Below, piece by piece: positions 27,024 to 39,903 of a DNA stretch of 39,903 nucleotides (positions within the stretch are counted from its first letter, which is position 1; every line of letters begins with the position of its first letter). Below the pieces are notes generated by a model. That model worked only from the letters and a program-made list of their open reading frames with translations, ran no database searches and was not told the DNA's origin. The position numbers were made by a program, and so were the translations under genes. Location of the stretch: the NCBI GenBank assembly GCA_948466395.1, contig CAOKAG010000010.1, positions 1 to 39,903 on the forward strand, written 5' to 3'. Origin of the DNA: an uncultured Mycoplasmatota bacterium. Lineage in GTDB: Bacteria; Bacillota_I; Bacilli_A; RF39; UBA660.

Positions 27024-27048
27024 AAAAAAATAGTAGAAACTATTTTTT
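27024..27048 (-). terminator. Rho-independent terminator of the 27047..28501 gene
   Basis: Minus strand AAATAGT-TTCT-ACTATTT-TTTTC. Confidence 0.65.
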
Positions 27049-28501
27049 ATAATCCTAAACGATAAGGCTGATCTAAAGTACCATTTCCACTAATCTTTTT
27101 TATATTGGCTTTTAAATAAAAGGTTGGACGAACTTCCATAGAATTAGTTGTGACACTATGATGAATGTAACCTTCATTATGAATATAACGAATTTCATTA
27201 GCTGAACTACTCGTGCTAAATGTCCATTCATTTCCTTCTTTTAACCAAGAATTTTCAGTATAAACTTGACGATTATCATAAATTTTATTTGTACGATAAC
27301 GCGTTCCAATACTATAGGCATAATCGCTTCCATACATCAAACCAACTTTACTAACATAGCTTTTAGGTTGATTTGAAAATACAGAAGTACTTCGTTCAGA
27401 AGCGTACAATAAATCGGGTGTAATCGTTTGATAGCTGGTCATTGCATCCTCTTCTGTACTACTTCCACCAATGTACCAAAGCGCATCATCTATAAAACTT
27501 TCATATTCCCCTAAGCTTGTTAAATAGCTTCCATTTAAAACCGTTGCATTTAAAGAACTCGTAACAATATTATTATTCTCTCCAAAAGCTTGTGTTTCCA
27601 AACTGGTATCTTTAATTAATTTAACTCGACGATTGTAACTTTCATTCTCTTCATTTTGAGTAGGCATGACTCCAATGATACGATACAAATGATCCGCTTC
27701 GCAAGTTTCCTCTTTTCCTAAACAAACATAATTATGAGGTTGATTTCCAACAAATCGATACTCTACCATTTCCTTAGTTTGTTGGCTTGCAATTTGCTCA
27801 AATCTTTCAATACTAGAATCTGTTTGAGCCAATGAAACTAAATAATCACTAAAAACAGAACTAATTTGAACATCTTCATCGACTTCACCACTGACATCCA
27901 ATTTTAAATAGACATATTGCCCTATAACATCTAAAGGAGCGGTTTCATCAATCCAAAGTTTTAACGTAAATTCAATCGTTTCATTAGCATGAATCATTGA
28001 AGTTTCTAAAATGGTTTTATTATCTTGATTATGTTCTGTAATTGATCCAATTAGTTTATTATCATTAATAACAATATTAGCTTCATCACTTGTATTACGA
28101 TTGGAAACCTTTTTACTTAAAGAATGTCTAATATAATTATGATCAACAAAGGTACCATCACTTGGAATCGATTCTTGATCGTTATAAATTAATAATTGAT
28201 AATTCATAGGTAACGTTCCTGTATTATGAACACTTAAAGTAAATTTACAACCAGAATCGCCTGATCCTTCACTTTCACTCATAGGCAACAAACAATTTGA
28301 ATCATCGTCCTCGTTTACAGTAATCACATTGCCATTATCGTATCGAATAACTAACGACCCCGCTTCTACAATTTGATTATTTGTATTATTATTGACTTTA
28401 AAAAATAAAGCATAACTTCCACCGATTAAAACAATGGCCATCCCTATAACTGCAAGAGCAATCATTTTAGTTTCTCTTTTAAAAACTTTTTTATAGTTCA
28501 T
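27047..28501 (-). CDS. SipW-class exported protein with TasA/camelysin-like N-terminal domain and C-terminal DUF6273-like domain
   Basis: Hydrophobic signal MIALAVIGMAIVLIGGSYALFFKV; N-terminal ~200 aa paralogous to 28592..29239; C-terminal YRIIGVM...RPTFYLKANIKKISGNGTLDQPYRL. Confidence 0.75.
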   Translation of the reverse strand: MNYKKVFKRETKMIALAVIGMAIVLIGGSYALFFKVNNNTNNQIVEAGSLVIRYDNGNVITVNEDDDSNCLLPMSESEGSGDSGCKFTLSVHNTGTLPMNYQLLIYNDQESIPSDGTFVDHNYIRHSLSKKVSNRNTSDEANIVINDNKLIGSITEHNQDNKTILETSMIHANETIEFTLKLWIDETAPLDVIGQYVYLKLDVSGEVDEDVQISSVFSDYLVSLAQTDSSIERFEQIASQQTKEMVEYRFVGNQPHNYVCLGKEETCEADHLYRIIGVMPTQNEENESYNRRVKLIKDTSLETQAFGENNNIVTSSLNATVLNGSYLTSLGEYESFIDDALWYIGGSSTEEDAMTSYQTITPDLLYASERSTSVFSNQPKSYVSKVGLMYGSDYAYSIGTRYRTNKIYDNRQVYTENSWLKEGNEWTFSTSSSANEIRYIHNEGYIHHSVTTNSMEVRPTFYLKANIKKISGNGTLDQPYRLGL

Positions 28502-29345: not shown

Positions 29346-30170
29346 TTACCTTCTTCTATTTCTTCTAAATTCAGCTTTCGTATTTTTATAAAAGTTTTTG
29401 CTTAACATATCATCAGAATCCATTGCTTCAACAATTCTAGTTTTCTTTTTTGTAATAATAGGTTCAATAAATGCTTCATGTGAATTTAAATTCAATTTTT
29501 TCTTTAATCTTTCCTTACGAATCAATTCACTTTTCTCTTTATCCTTTTTTATCCGTTCATTACTTTCATTCATTTCATTAATCTTATTTTTAACACCTAC
29601 TAATTTGAAAATTTTCAAAATATCTGAAACGATAATAAATAAAGCTGGAATAATAATAGCAATCAACCATCCACCTTTTTTAGATAAAAATTCTTGAACT
29701 TTCCCAAGTTTAGGAATACGTAGAATTACTTTCCCTATTACATTATCAAACTCGGCTGGAGCAGTATCTGGACTTAAATTATTATCCCCTTGTGTCCTAT
29801 AAGCTACACCTAAATCCGTTTTGACGACTTCAATAACACGATGGGTAACCGTTAAACCTTTTGAAAGTGAACTTGTCGAAACAAAAGTAATGACGTCTCC
29901 CACTTTAATTTCTTTAGGACTTTTAACTCTTTTTGAAATCACTACATCATATATATTGATATTGGGTTCCATGGAGCCACTAACAATGGTATATAAGGAT
30001 ACAAAAGGTTCAAATTTTTCTCCTTTACGTTCATAAAGTTTATTATTAATAGTATAATAAGCTAAAAATAGAGCAAGCAATATTAAAATAATTAAAGCTG
30101 TCCATGTAATAACATTAAGGGCAAATTTAAAAAAACCTTTAAAACCACTATAATTTTCTTTTGCTTTCAT
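29346..30170 (-). CDS. sipW: Signal peptidase I, ER/SipW type (Ser-His)
   Basis: YTIVSGSMEPNINIYDVVISK, VGDVITF, TVTHRVIEV (His where Lys is found in classical Lep), GDNN. Confidence 0.9.
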   Translation of the reverse strand: MKAKENYSGFKGFFKFALNVITWTALIILILLALFLAYYTINNKLYERKGEKFEPFVSLYTIVSGSMEPNINIYDVVISKRVKSPKEIKVGDVITFVSTSSLSKGLTVTHRVIEVVKTDLGVAYRTQGDNNLSPDTAPAEFDNVIGKVILRIPKLGKVQEFLSKKGGWLIAIIIPALFIIVSDILKIFKLVGVKNKINEMNESNERIKKDKEKSELIRKERLKKKLNLNSHEAFIEPIITKKKTRIVEAMDSDDMLSKNFYKNTKAEFRRNRRR

Positions 30171-30230
30171 ATTGCAAACCCTTCCTATTCTATTTTATTA
30201 TAAAATAGCCCGCCTAAAATTACAAGAAAA

Positions 30231-30252
30231 AAAACTCTATTTAGAGTTTTTT
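30231..30252 (-). terminator. Rho-independent terminator of the DGD-repeat gene
   Basis: Minus strand AAAACTCTA-AA-TAGAGTTTT-TTTT. Confidence 0.75.
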
Positions 30253-30253
30253 A

Positions 30254-32362
30254 CTATTGGACAATTTCAGCAACAAGCTTAGCTGTAAACTGTTTTCCTT
30301 GATCAACATCTTGATTGACATCTAAATTATGAAATTGATAAACGATTTCATAACTATAAGTTGTCTTAGCTGGAATAATAATCCTTTCAACTAATTTAGA
30401 ATCAGTTTTAGGTGCATCAAAGGTTCCTTCTACAATTCCATCTCTCTTAAGTGTATAAGTAAAACCACCTGGCATCGTAAATGTATTGGTTACATCTATC
30501 CAATTAATATTAAAGATTAAAGTTTCATTAGATTGATTTTCAATAGTAAATTTTTGTGTATCAGTCCATCCTGGCTCAATATCTAAGGCTTCTATAGCTT
30601 TAATATAAGTAACATACAAAATGGCATTTTCAGAAGGATCAACGTCAATAATTGGATCATCATCGCAATTAACGTCACAAATACCATCCCCATTGGTGTC
30701 AATATTTTTATCAGGCTTTCCATCGCCATCCGTATCACAATTTAAGTCACAAATGCCATCACCATTATTATCTATATTTATATTTGGCTTTGGTGGAGTC
30801 GGAGGGTTAACTGGTGGAGTTACACCACAATGAATATTGCAAATTCCATCTCCAGTCAAATCAATTTTAATATCAGGTTTACCATCATCATTCGTATCAC
30901 AATTTAAGTCACAAATGCCATCACCATTGGTGTCTTGATTCACAAGATTTTTATCGGGTTTGTTATCGCCATTCGTATCCACATTAAAATGAGGTTTATT
31001 ATCGCCATTATAATCGAGATTAAGATCAGGCTTTCCATCTCCGTTTGTATCAACGTTAATATTAGGTTTACCATCTCCATCTGTATCAATATTCAGATCA
31101 GGTTTACCATCCCCATTGGTATCAATGTTCAAATCAGGTTTACCATCTCCATTTGTATCACAATTCAAATCGCATTTTCCATCACCATTCGTGTCTTGAT
31201 TCACAAGATTATCATCTGGTTTACCATCACCGTCTTTATCGATGTTAACATCTGGAATTCCATCGCCATCCGTATCGATGTTTAGATCAGGCTTTCCATC
31301 ACCATTCGAATCAACATTTAAGTCAGGGATACCATCGCCATTCGAATCACAATTCAAGTCACAAATACCATCGCCATTCGTGTCTTGATTACTTAAATTT
31401 TTATCAGGTTTTCCATCACCATTGGTATCGATATTTATATCGGGTTTGCCATCGCCATTCACATCAATATTAATATCAGGCTTTCCATCACCATTCGTAT
31501 CGATGTTTAGATCGGGTTTGCCATCGCCATTGGTATCGATATTTATATCGGGTTTGCCATCGCCATTCACATCAATATTAATATCAGGTTTTCCGTCACC
31601 ATTCGTATCACAATTTAAGTCACAAATGCCATCGCCATTCGTATCTTGATCACTTAAATTTTTATCAGGTTTACCATCACCATCCGTATCAACGTTAACA
31701 TCTGGTTTATAATCGCCATTTACATCAATGTTAATATCAGGTTTCCCGTCGCCATCGGTATCAACGTTAATATCAGGTTTTCCGTCACCATTCACATCAA
31801 TATTAATGTCAGGTTTACCATTCCCATTGGTATCAATGTTAATATCGGGCTTGCCATCGCCATCCGTATCAATATTTAAATCGGGCTTACCATTTCCATT
31901 CATATCTACGTTTAAATTTGGGTGTCCATCGCCATTCGTATCACAATTCAAGTCACAAATACCATCGCCATTGGTATCTTGATTAATTAAATTTTTATCG
32001 GGTTTACCATCGCCATCCGTATCTAAATTAAATAGAGCTTTGTGATTCCCATTATAATCTAAATTAATATCAGGCTTGCCATCGTCATCCGTATCACAAT
32101 TCACATCACAAATACCATCATTATTTAAATCTATATTTAAATCTGGAATTCCATCACCATCGGTATCAATATTTAATTTTGATTCAACTACATTTCCTCG
32201 AAATTTATAATAAGTATAACTTCCAAGCACACAAACACACATTATAATAGCTACTAACAAAAAAATAATAATCAATCTTCTTTTTTTATCTTTTTGTTCA
32301 TCCTCTTGCAATAAAACATATTGTTCTTGATAATCATTCAGATCTTTCTCTTTATCATCCAT
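30254..32362 (-). CDS. Giant-repeat surface protein: N-terminal TM, about 40 DxDGDGxPD-type (TSP3/dockerin-like) calcium-binding units, C-terminal beta domain
   Basis: Repeats of NIDTNGDGKPDI (12 aa); nine C-x3-C pairs (e.g. ICDLNCD); Pro-rich hinge PPVNPPTPPKP; C-terminal ~130-aa domain with SipW-substrate-like features. Confidence 0.85.
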   Translation of the reverse strand: MDDKEKDLNDYQEQYVLLQEDEQKDKKRRLIIIFLLVAIIMCVCVLGSYTYYKFRGNVVESKLNIDTDGDGIPDLNIDLNNDGICDVNCDTDDDGKPDINLDYNGNHKALFNLDTDGDGKPDKNLINQDTNGDGICDLNCDTNGDGHPNLNVDMNGNGKPDLNIDTDGDGKPDINIDTNGNGKPDINIDVNGDGKPDINVDTDGDGKPDINIDVNGDYKPDVNVDTDGDGKPDKNLSDQDTNGDGICDLNCDTNGDGKPDINIDVNGDGKPDINIDTNGDGKPDLNIDTNGDGKPDINIDVNGDGKPDINIDTNGDGKPDKNLSNQDTNGDGICDLNCDSNGDGIPDLNVDSNGDGKPDLNIDTDGDGIPDVNIDKDGDGKPDDNLVNQDTNGDGKCDLNCDTNGDGKPDLNIDTNGDGKPDLNIDTDGDGKPNINVDTNGDGKPDLNLDYNGDNKPHFNVDTNGDNKPDKNLVNQDTNGDGICDLNCDTNDDGKPDIKIDLTGDGICNIHCGVTPPVNPPTPPKPNINIDNNGDGICDLNCDTDGDGKPDKNIDTNGDGICDVNCDDDPIIDVDPSENAILYVTYIKAIEALDIEPGWTDTQKFTIENQSNETLIFNINWIDVTNTFTMPGGFTYTLKRDGIVEGTFDAPKTDSKLVERIIIPAKTTYSYEIVYQFHNLDVNQDVDQGKQFTAKLVAEIVQ
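30640..32176 (-). repeat. Coding tandem repeat, 36-bp basic period with 45-bp variants
   Basis: Recurrent + strand words such as ccatcgccattcgtatc and tttatcaggtttaccatc; translated period 12 aa. Confidence 0.9.
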
Positions 32363-32420
32363 GGAAAACTACTCTCCTTACTTTAAGTAAGTATAACATA
32401 GAATAGTTTAATCTTCAACA

Positions 32421-32446
32421 AAAAAAAATCTACAACTTGTAGACTT
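32421..32446 (-). terminator. Rho-independent terminator of the TasA-like gene
   Basis: Minus strand TCTACA-AGT-TGTAGA-TTTTTTTTT. Confidence 0.75.
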
Positions 32447-32456
32447 TTTACACTAA

Positions 32457-33089
32457 TTATTTAACTTCTTTAAATCCAACTTGAACACTAAATGTTTGAC
32501 CAGCTTGATTATTTTCACCACTAGGATTTTGAACAACATCTTTATTTTCATATTCAATTACAATATAATAAGTTTTATCAAAATCTGGTGTAACCGTTAC
32601 ATCATGAGTAACCACTGTATTACCAGTAAACGTTCCATTACTTACTGCTACTTTATCTGTATCAGTACAAGTAGTAGTCATAAAATGTTGTAAACCTGTT
32701 TCATCAGTCGTTTCAGTTGGAACACCACAAGTTACTTCTTCTTCATAAATTGAATATTTTATATCTGAGCCAAAAGCAGCTGGTATATTAGGAGTTAAGG
32801 TTATTTGTGTTTTAATGGAAGCAGCCTCTGTATCCTTTCCACCTGTAATCTTAACGGGTTTAACCACTTTATAACCAGGCAATACGCCATCAGTAGGTGA
32901 AACATCACTTCCTAAATCCATTGATGCTGTTGCAGTCGTCTTACTTTTAACAGTAGTGGTTGGCTTCCCTCCAGTGCTCTCATTTGTACTAACTGATGCT
33001 GTAAAATAAGCAAAAGTTGCACCTACAACCGCCACTAATAATGTTGCAATTGCAATAACTGTTAATAATATAGTATTCTTCTTTTCCAT
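32457..33089 (-). CDS. TasA/camelysin-like fibre subunit candidate
   Basis: MEKKNTILLTVIAIATLLVAVVGATFAYFTASVSTN signal; 210 aa beta-rich; AAGGAGG RBS; own terminator. Confidence 0.75.
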   Translation of the reverse strand: MEKKNTILLTVIAIATLLVAVVGATFAYFTASVSTNESTGGKPTTTVKSKTTATASMDLGSDVSPTDGVLPGYKVVKPVKITGGKDTEAASIKTQITLTPNIPAAFGSDIKYSIYEEEVTCGVPTETTDETGLQHFMTTTCTDTDKVAVSNGTFTGNTVVTHDVTVTPDFDKTYYIVIEYENKDVVQNPSGENNQAGQTFSVQVGFKEVK

Positions 33090-33675: not shown

Positions 33676-34374
33676 TTATGAATTAAATATCCATTCTATT
33701 ATTAATTGCTTAATTTCATAATATTCTTGTTCTTCAAATTGCATATTGGCTATACAAAATCTTTTTGATGCTATATGTGAACAAAACATACACTCATACA
33801 AATCAAAGCAGTCTTGAATAAAGAATGAATGACTTACTTTATTAGAACAAATAACATTATAACTATTACTACAATCTTTCGAGTCATCGCATCTTATACA
33901 GAAATTACAAGTGCCAGACCTTTGAGATGCAAGTAAGAATTCACTATTACCACAAGAGTCGCAATAAATCATATTTTTTGAATCACTGCAGTCGGTACTT
34001 CTATAAACATTTTCACATCTATAAATCGTATCACTTTTTGCTACATGAATAGAGTCATAAACTCTTTCAGTTGTAGTTAAGTTAATGGTGTTCCATATAT
34101 CAATTAATTCTTGTAAGTTATTTATATCCTTTTTTGGGAGCATCCAACCTGTCTTTTCATCCCTTTTTTCCATATTTTTATTCGTTATGAATCTACCACT
34201 ATTAATAGAGTCTGCCCAAGTTATTTCATTTGTAGTTGAATCATTTACTTGCTTGGGTAATTTAACATCAAATGCGAACTTTTCTAATAATGTATCTAAA
34301 GAATAATTATTTTCTTTATCAAATATACTTTTAAATATTTTATCAACAATTTCTAATGCTTTATTATCATTCAT
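33676..34374 (-). CDS. Cys-rich short-repeat protein, partner of the HerA-like ATPase
   Basis: CENVYRSTDCSDSKNMIYCDSCGNSEFLL...CIRCDDSKDCSNSYNVICSNKV...CFDLYECMFCSHIASKRFCIANMQFEEQEYYE; starts 3 nt after the ATPase stop. Confidence 0.75.
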   Translation of the reverse strand: MNDNKALEIVDKIFKSIFDKENNYSLDTLLEKFAFDVKLPKQVNDSTTNEITWADSINSGRFITNKNMEKRDEKTGWMLPKKDINNLQELIDIWNTINLTTTERVYDSIHVAKSDTIYRCENVYRSTDCSDSKNMIYCDSCGNSEFLLASQRSGTCNFCIRCDDSKDCSNSYNVICSNKVSHSFFIQDCFDLYECMFCSHIASKRFCIANMQFEEQEYYEIKQLIIEWIFNS

Positions 34375-34377
34375 TTT

Positions 34378-36234
34378 TCACACACCTTTCTTGCTTGTTG
34401 AATTAGATAGTAAAATATCTTTTAAACTGACATTACTATTTAAACTAAAATTAGTTTTAGAATTATTTATATTATTGTTGTTATTTTCATTGCTGTTATC
34501 ATCTATAATTGTTCTTTTAATTCTAGGAATGCTAGTATAATCTAATGTAATCCCTTTAAATGCTGGTAATAATACCCCATTTGAATCGATTCTAACAATA
34601 CATTCTCTGTTATTTAGTTCAGTTAATAATTTAATCTTTCTATCTTTAGAATCATCTAGAGGTATTTTCATATTAAAGTTATCAACTAATACATTAGCAT
34701 CTAATTTTGATACTCTAAATATAAAATAGTTTATTACATTAGCAAATATAGAGTTCTTTAATTCATCAGATATTTGGTTAAAATATTGTCCCGCTAGTAT
34801 TAAAGATAAATTATATTTTCTTGCTTCTGATAAGTACCTAGACAAAATGGGATTTTCAACAACAGCAACCTCATCAATAATAAATATTATATGTTCATCA
34901 ATCTCTCGTTTTTGAATAATAGTCAATAACTGTTGCATTATTAATCCTGATATAGTTTTAGTTACTTTATCCCCAAGTTTTGTTCTATCTAGTGAGAATA
35001 AAGTTAAGAAATTATCATGTATTGTATTTTTTAAATTTTCATTATTTTGCTCTGAATTAAATACTGGTATCATTTCCATTTCATCTATAAACCCTATAAT
35101 TGGAGAGATAGCATCACCATAAGATTTAGTTTTTAAATCATTAAAATCTGATAAAAAAAAATCTATTACACTAATAGGTAAGCTATATTTTAACTTCTTT
35201 ATTAATTCATTTCTATACTCTAAATCTAAAATAAGTTTTCTTAAATTTCTAAAATTAAATGATTCATCAGTTAATAGTAAATGTATAGAATGTCTTAAAA
35301 CTCTTTCTAGTTTTGAATTGTATTGGTCAGCAATTAATGATTTTAATAAATCTAATAATAATTCTGTAGAGGCTACAATATCATCATTATTATTAATAAA
35401 TAAGTCAATGCTATCTAAATTACTTTTAAAGTCAATTACCTTCCCAATACCACCTATATCATTTTCAAGTGCAGCATGAGGATCAATGACTACAACTTTA
35501 TATTTTTGGCGTATATTTTCATTTTTATTAATATTATTGATTAAAAGACTTATAAATTTAGATTTACCACATCCAGAAGAGCCCATTATGATAGAGTGTT
35601 TATCAAAACTAAAATTATTTTGATTAAGGTAGAAATCACCTTGTAAATAAGGAAATGTATCAACAGAGAGTAATGCGTTATTAGAGTCAGTATTTAATAA
35701 ATGTACTATTTTATTTATTTCTAAATATTTAGGAGAACTTTTATAAAAATATCTTTTATTCCCTTCAAAGTCTGCTGATAATATACTTGTTGGAACAGCA
35801 AATATAACATTATATATTTTTATTACACCATTTTTATTAAGAAAAAATCTTATTTTAGACTTAATTTTATCTTCAAATAGTTTTAAAAAACTAATTTCAA
35901 GATATTCAAGAGTTCCTTTATTTCTAATCTCACTATAATTTATTAGGTCAATAATACTACTACCAACTTTAGGCAGAGAAAGTAATGTATAGTTATGCTT
36001 AGGTGCTTTTATTTCTTTAGTAGATTTTAACAAAAATGAATTTAAATTATTTATTGTTGCAGGAAAACTACATCTAGTTTTAACAAAGTATCTTATTTGG
36101 TTTCTATCGTTAGTGATAATTATCTTCCATTTTCTTAAAACACCATTATAATTTGATATTGTGTTAATTAACTCTAACCATTCTTCCTTTGAAATAAATT
36201 TTTTAGTTAGATATATTTCTGACGTTAACCCCAT
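34378..36234 (-). CDS. HerA/VirB4/TraC-like P-loop ATPase
   Basis: Walker A IIMGSSGCGKSKF, VVVIDPHAAL, Walker B HIIFIIDEVAVVENP, sensor-like LSLILAGQYFNQI. Confidence 0.85.
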   Translation of the reverse strand: MGLTSEIYLTKKFISKEEWLELINTISNYNGVLRKWKIIITNDRNQIRYFVKTRCSFPATINNLNSFLLKSTKEIKAPKHNYTLLSLPKVGSSIIDLINYSEIRNKGTLEYLEISFLKLFEDKIKSKIRFFLNKNGVIKIYNVIFAVPTSILSADFEGNKRYFYKSSPKYLEINKIVHLLNTDSNNALLSVDTFPYLQGDFYLNQNNFSFDKHSIIMGSSGCGKSKFISLLINNINKNENIRQKYKVVVIDPHAALENDIGGIGKVIDFKSNLDSIDLFINNNDDIVASTELLLDLLKSLIADQYNSKLERVLRHSIHLLLTDESFNFRNLRKLILDLEYRNELIKKLKYSLPISVIDFFLSDFNDLKTKSYGDAISPIIGFIDEMEMIPVFNSEQNNENLKNTIHDNFLTLFSLDRTKLGDKVTKTISGLIMQQLLTIIQKREIDEHIIFIIDEVAVVENPILSRYLSEARKYNLSLILAGQYFNQISDELKNSIFANVINYFIFRVSKLDANVLVDNFNMKIPLDDSKDRKIKLLTELNNRECIVRIDSNGVLLPAFKGITLDYTSIPRIKRTIIDDNSNENNNNNINNSKTNFSLNSNVSLKDILLSNSTSKKGV

Positions 36235-36270
36235 AATCCGTCACCTCAGCAATCAGTATATCAAAAACTC

Positions 36271-36304
36271 AAAATAAAAAACTGACTTTTTAATAATCAG
36301 TTTT
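36271..36304 (-). terminator. Rho-independent terminator of the AraC-family gene
   Basis: Minus strand AAAACTGA-N11-TCAGTTTT-TTATTTT. Confidence 0.65.
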
Positions 36305-36310
36305 GTCAGT

Positions 36311-37105
36311 TTAATAAATTGCAACTAGAAAATCTGTTACGCCATTGTGATAATATTCTAATTCAGGTAATTCCTTTAAGTTATATTTAACTGATGGTAA
36401 GAACTCTCCATAAAATTTATGGGATATTTCTTGTATATCTTTAGCATTCTGTGAATTAATTCTAAATCTAATCCACTTACTTTTAGGTATTTTAATATGT
36501 TCAAATTTTTCAATTTTCTTATCGTATAAGCAATAATACTTTTGACTTTCTTCACGTTCTATATCATAGGTAATCATTCCATATTTAACCTCGCCATACT
36601 TCTTTAAATATCTATTTTCAGTCTGTCTAAAAAATGTTGGTGCATCTTTGCCAATTTCATCATTGTTAGTATCAATACCAACACCATATAAATTTATTTC
36701 ATCTAGATTTATTATTTCATAATCTAATTCAGTAGTAAAGTTAATATCTTCATTAAAAACGATTCTAGGAAAAATTCTTAACTTTGTTTCTTTATTTACT
36801 AGACTAGGTTTGATACCATGAAATTTTTCAAATGATCTTGAAAAGGATGTGGCATTATCATATTGGTATTTTACAGCAACATCTATTACTTTTAAATTAC
36901 CTTCATATAAATCGTATCCTGCACAAGACAGCCTTCTTTTTCTAATATATTCAGATAAAGAAATACCTGCTATCATAGTAAATAACCTTTGCATGGCATA
37001 GACATTAACACCTAACATTTTTGCTAGAACTTCATAATTAATTTTTTCTTCTAAGTTTGCATCAATATATTTAGTAATTCCATTTAAACTTTTATAAATA
37101 TTCAA
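36311..37105 (-). CDS. AraC-family regulator with GyrI-like effector domain
   Basis: Two-helix AraC HTH INYEVLAKMLGVNVYAMQRLFTMIAGISLSEYIRKRRLSCAGYDL...VAVKYQYDNATSFSRSFEKFHGIKPS; TTG start at 37105 after AGGGGATG. Confidence 0.88.
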   Translation of the reverse strand: MNIYKSLNGITKYIDANLEEKINYEVLAKMLGVNVYAMQRLFTMIAGISLSEYIRKRRLSCAGYDLYEGNLKVIDVAVKYQYDNATSFSRSFEKFHGIKPSLVNKETKLRIFPRIVFNEDINFTTELDYEIINLDEINLYGVGIDTNNDEIGKDAPTFFRQTENRYLKKYGEVKYGMITYDIEREESQKYYCLYDKKIEKFEHIKIPKSKWIRFRINSQNAKDIQEISHKFYGEFLPSVKYNLKELPELEYYHNGVTDFLVAIY

Positions 37106-37136
37106 AGTACATCCCCTATATAATATTATAACAAAA

Positions 37137-38120: not shown

Positions 38121-39311
38121 TTAAATATTATCTAATGACTCTAATAGTAAAAAATCTTTTAATTTTATATGAGTTACCATGCTTGTAGAGTAATCAATCT
38201 CATCATTTGTTATAATGACTTTTTTTATCGTATTATCTAAGTTTTTGAATGCATTAAATTCTCTATTGTATGTTTTTTCATCAGCAATACTATAAGCAAC
38301 TTGAATATAATATTGCTTATTATCTTTAAAAATTAAAAAATCAATTTCTTTATCATTATTGTGAAATACATTAATATTGTAACCCATAAAAAGTAATTCA
38401 TTATATACTATGTTTTCTAAGTTATGAGTTAAATCATAACGATTGTCCATACATCTAATAGAGTTAAAAGCAACATCAGAATTATATATTTTAAAATAAT
38501 AAGCTAGTTCATTTTTAGTTTTGGTAGAATATGGTTTTATTCTTTCAATAATATAGGCTTCTTCTAAATAATTCAAATACTTAATAATTGTGTTAATAGA
38601 GCCATCAATGTGCTCATTTTTTAAGTAGCCTTCTATAGAACGAGCAGAAAAAATTCTAGAATTGGATTTTAAAACATAATTTGTAATTCTTTTAAAAAGT
38701 TCCATGTTTTGTATTTTAAATCTACTGATCAAATCTTTTTCAACAATAGAACTATTAATTTCATTTAAATATTTAATTTTGTCTGCTTCTTTTTGAAATT
38801 CAAATCTTTTAGGAAATCCTCCCCAGATCAAATAGTCCATAATACTACAACTAATTTTTAATTCTTGGCAATATTCCATTATCTCTTTATAAACAAATGG
38901 TCTAATCTGAAATGAAACATATCTTCCACTAAATTCTTTTGTAAACTCATTTGATAGTAGTTTAGAATTAGATCCAGTAATAAATACAGAGTGATTATCT
39001 AATCTTAAAGTTTTACAAGCAAGTTGCCAATCTTTAACTTCCTGAATTTCATCAAAAAACAAATAGTTTTTTCCATTTTTTCTATTTTTATTTATATACT
39101 CTAGTAATTGTTTGGCGTTTGAAATGGTAGATATAATTCTTTCATCTTCAAAATTCAAATAAATAACATTATCACTTTTATTTTTAATTTCTTCCATAAT
39201 TTGTTCTAAAATAATAGATTTACCAGATCTTCTAATTCCCATAATAATTTTAATTAAGTCTGAATCATAAAATCCTCGAATTTGTTCTAAATAGTGTTCT
39301 CTTTTTATCAT
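38121..39311 (-). CDS. AAA_14/DUF4143 ATPase
   Basis: IIMGIRRSGKSIILEQI, NYLFFDEIQEVKDWQ, VFITGSNSKLLSNEFTKEFSGRYVSFQIRPF, C-terminal EIDFLIFKDNKQYYIQVAYS. Confidence 0.93.
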   Translation of the reverse strand: MIKREHYLEQIRGFYDSDLIKIIMGIRRSGKSIILEQIMEEIKNKSDNVIYLNFEDERIISTISNAKQLLEYINKNRKNGKNYLFFDEIQEVKDWQLACKTLRLDNHSVFITGSNSKLLSNEFTKEFSGRYVSFQIRPFVYKEIMEYCQELKISCSIMDYLIWGGFPKRFEFQKEADKIKYLNEINSSIVEKDLISRFKIQNMELFKRITNYVLKSNSRIFSARSIEGYLKNEHIDGSINTIIKYLNYLEEAYIIERIKPYSTKTKNELAYYFKIYNSDVAFNSIRCMDNRYDLTHNLENIVYNELLFMGYNINVFHNNDKEIDFLIFKDNKQYYIQVAYSIADEKTYNREFNAFKNLDNTIKKVIITNDEIDYSTSMVTHIKLKDFLLLESLDNI

Positions 39312-39523: not shown

Positions 39524-39903
39524 CTAAAACATAGTTTTTTCAATTACATAATAAGGAATATCATCAATGTTCATTGTGATTTGTTCCATGGTATCTCTAT
39601 CTCTAATAGTAACCAAACCATTTTCTAACGTCGTATCATCAATGGTAATACAAAATGGAGTACCAATCGCATCTTGCCTTCTATATCTTTTACCAATAGA
39701 GGATGAATCATCCATTGTACACATAAAATAATTATTCAATTTGTCATAAACTTCTTTGGCTTTCTCTGAATGAATCTTTTTAATTAATGGTAATACAGCA
39801 ACTTTATATGGTGCTAATGCTGGATGAAGTTTTAATACATCTCTAATGCTTCCATCATCTAAAGTTTCTTTTTTTAAAGCATCACATAAGAATACAAGCA
39901 TCA
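39524..39903 (-). CDS. glyQS: Glycyl-tRNA synthetase (single-chain type), C-terminal part, truncated by window edge
   Basis: LHPALAPYKVAVLPL, YRRQDAIGTPFCITIDDTTLENGLVTIRDRDTMEQ anticodon-binding domain. Confidence 0.92.
   Translation of the reverse strand, partial: MLVFLCDALKKETLDDGSIRDVLKLHPALAPYKVAVLPLIKKIHSEKAKEVYDKLNNYFMCTMDDSSSIGKRYRRQDAIGTPFCITIDDTTLENGLVTIRDRDTMEQITMNIDDIPYYVIEKTMF

Follow-up and report, generated by a model that had tools for sequence, protein, structure and literature searches.

A gene cassette of uncultured gut Bacilli pairing a HerA/TrwB-superfamily ATPase with a Cys-rich partner and a Rob-like regulator: a possible inducible protection machine

Introduction

Ring ATPases of the HerA superfamily, in company with new partners, have repeatedly proved to be immune machines. 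The closest described counterparts of the locus studied here are the HerA-effector systems, DUF4297-HerA and Sir2-HerA (Nezha), in which a HerA-superfamily ring ATPase and a dedicated partner form a two-gene operon of patchy, accessory distribution; DUF4297-HerA provides the precedent for a HerA ring and its partner acting in defence (PMC11291478). A RecA-like core with an all-helical insertion is also found in the TrwB/VirD4 coupling proteins and in VirB4.

The window analysed here, 39,903 nucleotides in length, is an entire 39.9-kb contig (CAOKAG010000010.1) of an uncultured Mycoplasmatota bacterium (GCA_948466395.1) whose genome assembly measures 1.36 Mb and is 90% complete. A preliminary description of the window had proposed a two-gene module of a HerA-like ATPase (A) and a Cys-rich repeat protein (B). 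This pair resembles the HerA-effector systems in operon layout and accessory distribution, and the best fold matches of A are HerA proteins. It differs from them, however, in that B is a predicted beta-solenoid devoid of a nuclease or NADase signature, the N-terminal domain of A is unmatched by HerA models, a Rob-like regulator accompanies the pair and the loci do not lie in defence islands. No account of such a cassette turned up in a limited search of the literature.

Results and Discussion

Organisation of the R-A-B cassette

The features of the cassette, all on the minus strand of the window, are as follows.

33676-34374, minus strand: B, 232 aa; Cys-rich, acidic protein
34378-36234, minus strand: A, 618 aa; HerA/VirD4-superfamily ATPase
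36255-36260, minus strand: TGA-TATACT, probable -10 box of a promoter of A itself, with no TTGACA-like -35
36276-36312, minus strand: inverted-repeat element AAACTGAC-AAAACTGAT-TATTAAAAA-GTCAGTTTTTT; candidate operator for R, overlapping A's -35 region
36311-37105, minus strand: R, 264 aa; AraC-family HTH_18 with a C-terminal GyrI-like/Cass2 ligand-binding domain
37125-37130, minus strand: TATAAT, probable -10 box of the promoter of R; the loci become homologous about here

Both open reading frames of the proposed pair were found where they had been placed, with a gap of 3 nt and with the motifs quoted for them, and in relatives the A and B genes overlap or lie within ~25 nt of each other. Neither has a paralogue of note elsewhere in its own genome. 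The pair had been regarded as a two-gene unit with an intergenic region of its own; instead, a third conserved gene, R, lies directly upstream on the same strand, and the supposed intergenic region (36235-36310) is the junction with this gene. When the genes around the loci were clustered, R was the sole further recurrent neighbour, and 56 of the 67 loci with sufficient upstream sequence have it immediately or closely upstream of A in the same orientation. Among 147 related genomes, R homologues of at least 50% identity were restricted to those carrying A-B, being present in 11 of these 13; one genome (G061) has none and in the other (G002) the contig is cut just upstream. Mapped on the A tree, the presence of R changed independently about ten times. 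Whatever its role, the proper object of study is the three-gene R-A-B unit with its element and not the A-B pair.

Co-conservation, distribution and selection

Separate searches with A and with B matched the identical 13 of the 147 related genomes. When GTDB genomes were scanned using the alignment of B, 156 relatives emerged; in the best 80 of these 156 loci, which were inspected, A stands directly before B in the same orientation, wherever the contig reaches far enough, with the exception of a decayed locus (L117) in which A is lost and B truncated. A and B, whose co-conservation had been named as one point on which the module would stand or fall, are therefore strictly linked, and the proposal of an undescribed unit of an ATPase and a Cys-rich protein has held up. 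Further decayed copies have A split (L067) or B split (L098); together with L117, G228:C29:12116-12652, G502:C21:10703-11089 and G539:C61, these cassettes with split reading frames and stop codons indicate recurrent loss.

B is present in 47 of the 385 genomes of the order (~12%) and in 24 of its 117 genera, all within a single family, and is missing from the remaining 338 genomes; no further B was found outside this family among 296 genomes of the class. In the genus of the window itself, 4 of 22 genomes carry the cassette, and the closest named records include Candidatus Coprovivens, Ventrenecus and Onthousia. Pairwise-distance matrices of the three proteins were correlated (A-B 0.92, A-R 0.85, B-R 0.89). 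In most pairs dN/dS was ~0.1 in A as in R and lay at 0.03-0.08 in B, the numbers being small in the closest pair, from which it follows that all three genes are functional and under purifying selection, with B the most constrained. At the level of sequence, co-inheritance, gene order, the inverted-repeat element, intact ATPase motifs, purifying selection and a multitude of chromosomal contexts are thus all in evidence.

Genomic context and movement of the cassette

The flanks of the loci, diverse and unrelated chromosomal genes, formed 33 context groups on the upstream side and 42 on the downstream side, and most loci consist of R-A-B only. The eroded mobile context ascribed to the unit is therefore no feature of the module, and a mobile-island or defence-island setting was not borne out either, since housekeeping genes make up most of the neighbours and, out of 137, only a handful match defence models. 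The preliminary description was right that the usual HerA partners NurA and Sir2 and T4SS genes are absent: none of these, nor a relaxase, was seen adjoining the cassette among the neighbours of ~80 loci, and complete conjugation clusters around A, envisaged there as a possibility in relatives, were likewise not seen in these loci.

Homology between loci is limited by the B stop codon on one side and ends near the R -10 box on the other. Two loci (L048 and L049) have the upstream flank in common and differ downstream, while the window and another locus (L050) have a common downstream flank and differ upstream. Comparison of the loci revealed no terminal repeats, shared ends or conserved recombinase around the cassette, and a conjugative or transposable element, the transposon ends of which were sought, was rejected on the grounds that neither a recombinase nor terminal repeats bound it. 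In a genome of another genus (G063), A, B and R are 84%, 88% and 77% identical to those of the window, respectively, as against 66% for YchF, which is 84-86% identical within the window's genus. This excess of cassette identity over YchF identity points to lateral exchange of a naked R-A-B cassette, with the caveat that G063 is 71% complete and the contig may be misbinned. An origin in viruses was also considered and rejected, as relatives of the A-B pair were found neither in viral contigs (four protein-based scans) nor in phage records (queried with A, matches up to E 5 included), and plasmid matches of A are distant, core-only and not relatives of the pair. An empty-site comparison via the second glyS copy (G019, G020) and the TasA-like gene failed because the flanks are not syntenic.

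The ATPase A

A is an intact superfamily ATPase with its core in the HerA/TrwB/VirB4 superfamily. The Walker A residues G218-S220-G221-G223-K224-S225 and the Walker B acids D454 and E455 are invariant in 68 relatives (GSSGxGKS and DE), confirming the Walker motifs first noted in the window, and all 68 A proteins match Pfam DUF87 and TrwB_AAD_bind, with TraG-D_C also matched. The AlphaFold2 model (mean pLDDT 87.2) predicts an N-terminal alpha/beta domain (1-190) and a RecA-like core (~210-565) with an all-helical insertion (~286-393), followed by a disordered Asn-rich linker (575-600) and a conserved C-terminal motif, LKDILxxNSTSRK (604-616). The top structures retrieved by Foldseek were HerA (4d2i, 4e-13), DndH, VirB4 and TrwB, with HerA, VirB4 and TrwB in the range 1e-10 to 1e-13; the match to 4d2i spans 523 columns, but with an rmsd of 11.6 and a TM score of 0.41, and HerA models match A around the core only.

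With TrwB/VirD4 and VirB4, A shares the core with its helical insertion and the TrwB_AAD_bind match in 68 of 68 proteins. In contrast to them, it is always paired with B, and relaxase and T4SS genes are lacking. Over 19-residue stretches, mean hydropathy peaks at 1.46 in A and at 0.84 in B; neither protein is thus expected to have a membrane segment. A is basic (pI 8.9). In PADLOC, all 68 A proteins matched Mad8 of MADS best (down to 4.5e-18); the match is, however, limited to the ATPase core, A having 618 aa against the 314 positions of the model. Membership of MADS, prompted by this match, was rejected, as no complete mad1-mad8 set, methyltransferase included, adjoins and Mad3-like matches were limited to 2 of 137 neighbours.

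The partner B

The AlphaFold2 model of B, of high confidence in the best of five models (mean pLDDT 91.6, against 70-77 for the other four), has a strand every six residues, and the B alignment independently gives the same period. The protein would comprise an N-terminal helical part, a hexad-repeat beta-solenoid at ~100-190 and a C-terminal helix at 215-231. Autocorrelation of Cys and Ser over 78 relatives reached 0.43 at lag 6 and 0.54 at lag 12, values equalled in 0 of 2000 permutations. The regular Cys/Ser spacing that had caught the eye in the window is thus above chance, and the beta-solenoid suggested from it agrees with the predicted fold and its hexad periodicity. The folds of both A and B are taken here as predictions. 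C195-X2-C198-X-H200-X6-C207 is invariant in the 78 sequences, and this CX2CXHX6C signature is plausibly a metal site.

B (pI 4.9) matched no Pfam, NCBIfam or PADLOC family, stray weak Pfam matches of single relatives being mutually inconsistent, and Foldseek found no fold match at E<=1e-3 in the PDB or in the viral structures of BFVD; weak similarity was seen to GlmU/LpxD-type hexapeptide beta-helices (E 3.5e-3). Like hexapeptide beta-helix and pentapeptide-repeat proteins, B is predicted to be an acidic hexad-repeat solenoid. It differs from them in having no acyltransferase or pentapeptide signature and no Pfam match, in its richness in Cys, and in its additional N-terminal helical part and invariant CX2CXHX6C. 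Three other leads were discarded: a weak PHROG match, which probably stems from the Cys-rich repeats, the other matches of that family being CNNC-type repeats or unrelated proteins; a match in phage FL-1, which is a low-complexity Cys-repeat frame; and the idea that the C-terminus belongs to a wider FNKQYSKEEY-motif family, for which viral contigs yielded no match.

The regulator R and the inverted-repeat element

R matches Pfam HTH_18 (4e-15), Cass2 (3.4e-10) and GyrI-like (2.1e-9), which is the domain architecture of Rob. An alignment of 29 relatives and a GGGGATG ribosome site place its start at a TTG at 37105, the 297-aa reading frame called initially starting too early. Near this start, most R-containing loci share a block, TATGnTAAAATA...AGGTGATG, and farther upstream the DNA is unrelated. 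R has in common with the Rob/MarA-type AraC regulators the N-terminal HTH_18, the C-terminal GyrI-like/Cass2 domain and a candidate site near the -35 of its target; unlike them, it is apparently a dedicated local switch, with a 15-mer site present once in the genome.

The ~76 nt between R and A hold the conserved element, AAACTGACAAAACTGATTATTAAAAAGTCAGTTTTTT, then a promoter-like box, TGATATACT, and a strong ribosome site. In short form the element reads AACTGAC..AACTGAT..GTCAGTTTTTT. A fuzzy pattern, which had a background of 170 matches in 2.1 Mb on both strands with module copies included, detected it in 54 of the 56 loci with R and in 0 of the 10 without (Fisher p=3e-10). Its 15-mer half, ACTGACAAAACTGAT, is unique in the genome with one mismatch allowed, and the circuit thus appears to be local.

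The element could merely be an intrinsic terminator of R with no bearing on the control of A-B, and in most loci its position would allow this. It has the shape of a terminator, with a U-run directly past the R stop and an RNA hairpin of -8.1 kcal/mol (z -2.2), and it is gone whenever R is gone. However, in a locus where four genes separate R from A (L088) the element still stands in front of A, and where a transglutaminase-like gene lies between them (L078) identical copies precede both targets. In a genome devoid of A-B (G010), a 42% identical R homologue is followed by a repeat of the same shape and a transglutaminase-like gene. These three arrangements speak for an operator that precedes the gene under its control. 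Conservation extends to the loop half-site AACTGAT, and A has a TATACT box, in a block conserved across the loci with R, without a TTGACA-like -35, as would be the case for an activator-dependent promoter. Changes in the arms, assessed by eye for compensation, are mostly one-sided, which counts against a terminator hairpin without deciding between operator and terminator. Taken together, we consider a mere terminator unlikely, at perhaps three parts in ten of our belief, and infer that the element is the R operator controlling A-B.

Other genes also stand behind regulators of the R family. A nitroreductase is first behind R at four loci (L077:619-1194, L091:5334-5912, L109:1458-2027 and L112:5538-6113), where it is also the first gene past the element. 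At L078:2450-6880 and L201:516-2289 the gene behind an R-family regulator is transglutaminase-like and comes with an inverted repeat of this kind, and a gene of the transglutaminase-like cluster follows B at L085:8776-9648.

Possible role of the cassette

A self-regulated, horizontally exchanged chromosomal gene cassette is, tentatively, the best explanation of R-A-B as a whole. In the mechanism we envisage, R would act as a Rob-like AraC activator whose GyrI-like domain binds a ligand, and its binding to the inverted-repeat element before A would switch on A-B. A would assemble as a HerA/TrwB-type ring ATPase working only together with B, and B, an acidic beta-solenoid in which a Cys/His cluster probably binds metal, would cap the ring or recruit for it, possibly through contact with the conserved C-terminal tail motif of A. 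The complex would be cytoplasmic and act on nucleic acid, a protein substrate being less likely. Its function would be inducible protection, with invading DNA the likeliest threat. Ring assembly, the A-B contact, the substrate and defence as the purpose are all conjectural parts of this scheme.

Defence against foreign DNA is our leading guess because of precedents such as DUF4297-HerA, and by this analogy a defence role is possible, on circumstantial support. Against it, no nuclease or other toxic domain can be recognised in B, and the mostly housekeeping neighbours, few of which match defence models, do not favour it. The co-targets, nitroreductase and transglutaminase-like genes, together with the Rob-like regulator, suggest chemical stress as well as phage. 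The cassette could accordingly be a chemical-stress or antimicrobial-resistance unit in which a drug, bile acid or bacteriocin is the signal perceived by R, the target shielded by A-B is DNA or a protein, and the nitroreductase or transglutaminase-like enzyme (behind R-family regulators in L077, L091, L109 and L112, and in L078 and G010, respectively) is an optional detoxifying companion. The Rob-type architecture of R with its ligand domain agrees with this, and the strong purifying selection on B suits a housekeeping-like protection better than an arms race. Yet no HerA/TrwB ring ATPase is known to serve a chemical-stress or resistance pathway, neither a transporter nor a modifying enzyme is conserved, and most loci have R-A-B only; we put this explanation at little better than one chance in four.

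The preliminary description had also entertained DNA transfer or surface export. A DNA-transfer, DNA-uptake or secretion remnant, with A as coupling protein and B as its docking partner, would explain the TrwB_AAD_bind and TraG-D_C matches and the TrwB/VirB4 folds, but A has no expected membrane segment and so no N-terminal anchor, no relaxase or other transfer gene was seen in ~80 loci, the pair was not found in phages, its plasmid matches are distant and core-only, and the three-gene unit is self-contained in ~40 contexts. The context largely rules out such a remnant, which we regard as very improbable, and the hydropathy values and the neighbours likewise tell against transfer or export. 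Less remote, though still improbable, is a host maintenance factor in DNA repair, chromosome segregation or recombination, akin to HerA-NurA and repeatedly gained and lost. Purifying selection on all three genes and the housekeeping-type neighbours would be expected of it; on the other side stand the absence from 338 of 385 genomes of the order, regulation that looks inducible and the lack of a nuclease partner among the genes found. An inducible defence machine, with mobile genetic elements as its likeliest target, remains the role we prefer, with somewhat less than even confidence. Somewhat more guarded is the full proposal, that R-A-B is an undescribed ligand-inducible cytoplasmic machine of uncultured gut Bacilli, joining a HerA/TrwB ring ATPase to a new class of metal-binding beta-solenoid in immunity against mobile elements or chemical stress.

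The system is compact, with one sensor, one motor, one partner of no known family and one candidate operator, and it occurs in ~12% of the genomes sampled from one order of uncultured gut bacteria. With a partner that is seemingly a solenoid and not an enzyme, and with control by a putative chemical sensor, what stands to be learned is a new logic of defence or a new way of responding to chemical stress.

Other features of the window

Directly downstream of the cassette, 29346-33089 (minus strand) encodes a SipW-like signal peptidase, a 702-aa repeat protein with ~12-residue DTNGDGKPDLNI repeats of calcium-binding type and a TasA/camelysin-like protein of 210 aa, probably a surface-fibre cluster; homologues of the 210-aa protein occur in genomes of the same genus at 30-57% identity. 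Two large minus-strand reading frames, at 199-2166 (655 aa) and 27047-28501 (484 aa), have no Pfam match at E<=1e-5. An ATPase with AAA_14 and DUF4143 (38121-39311, minus strand) lies outside the conserved cassette. At the end of the contig, 39524-39901 (minus strand) holds the C-terminal part (HGTP_anticodon) of what seems to be a second glycyl-tRNA synthetase gene; it shares 93-95% identity with copies in two genomes of the same genus and 62% with the other copy in its own genome.
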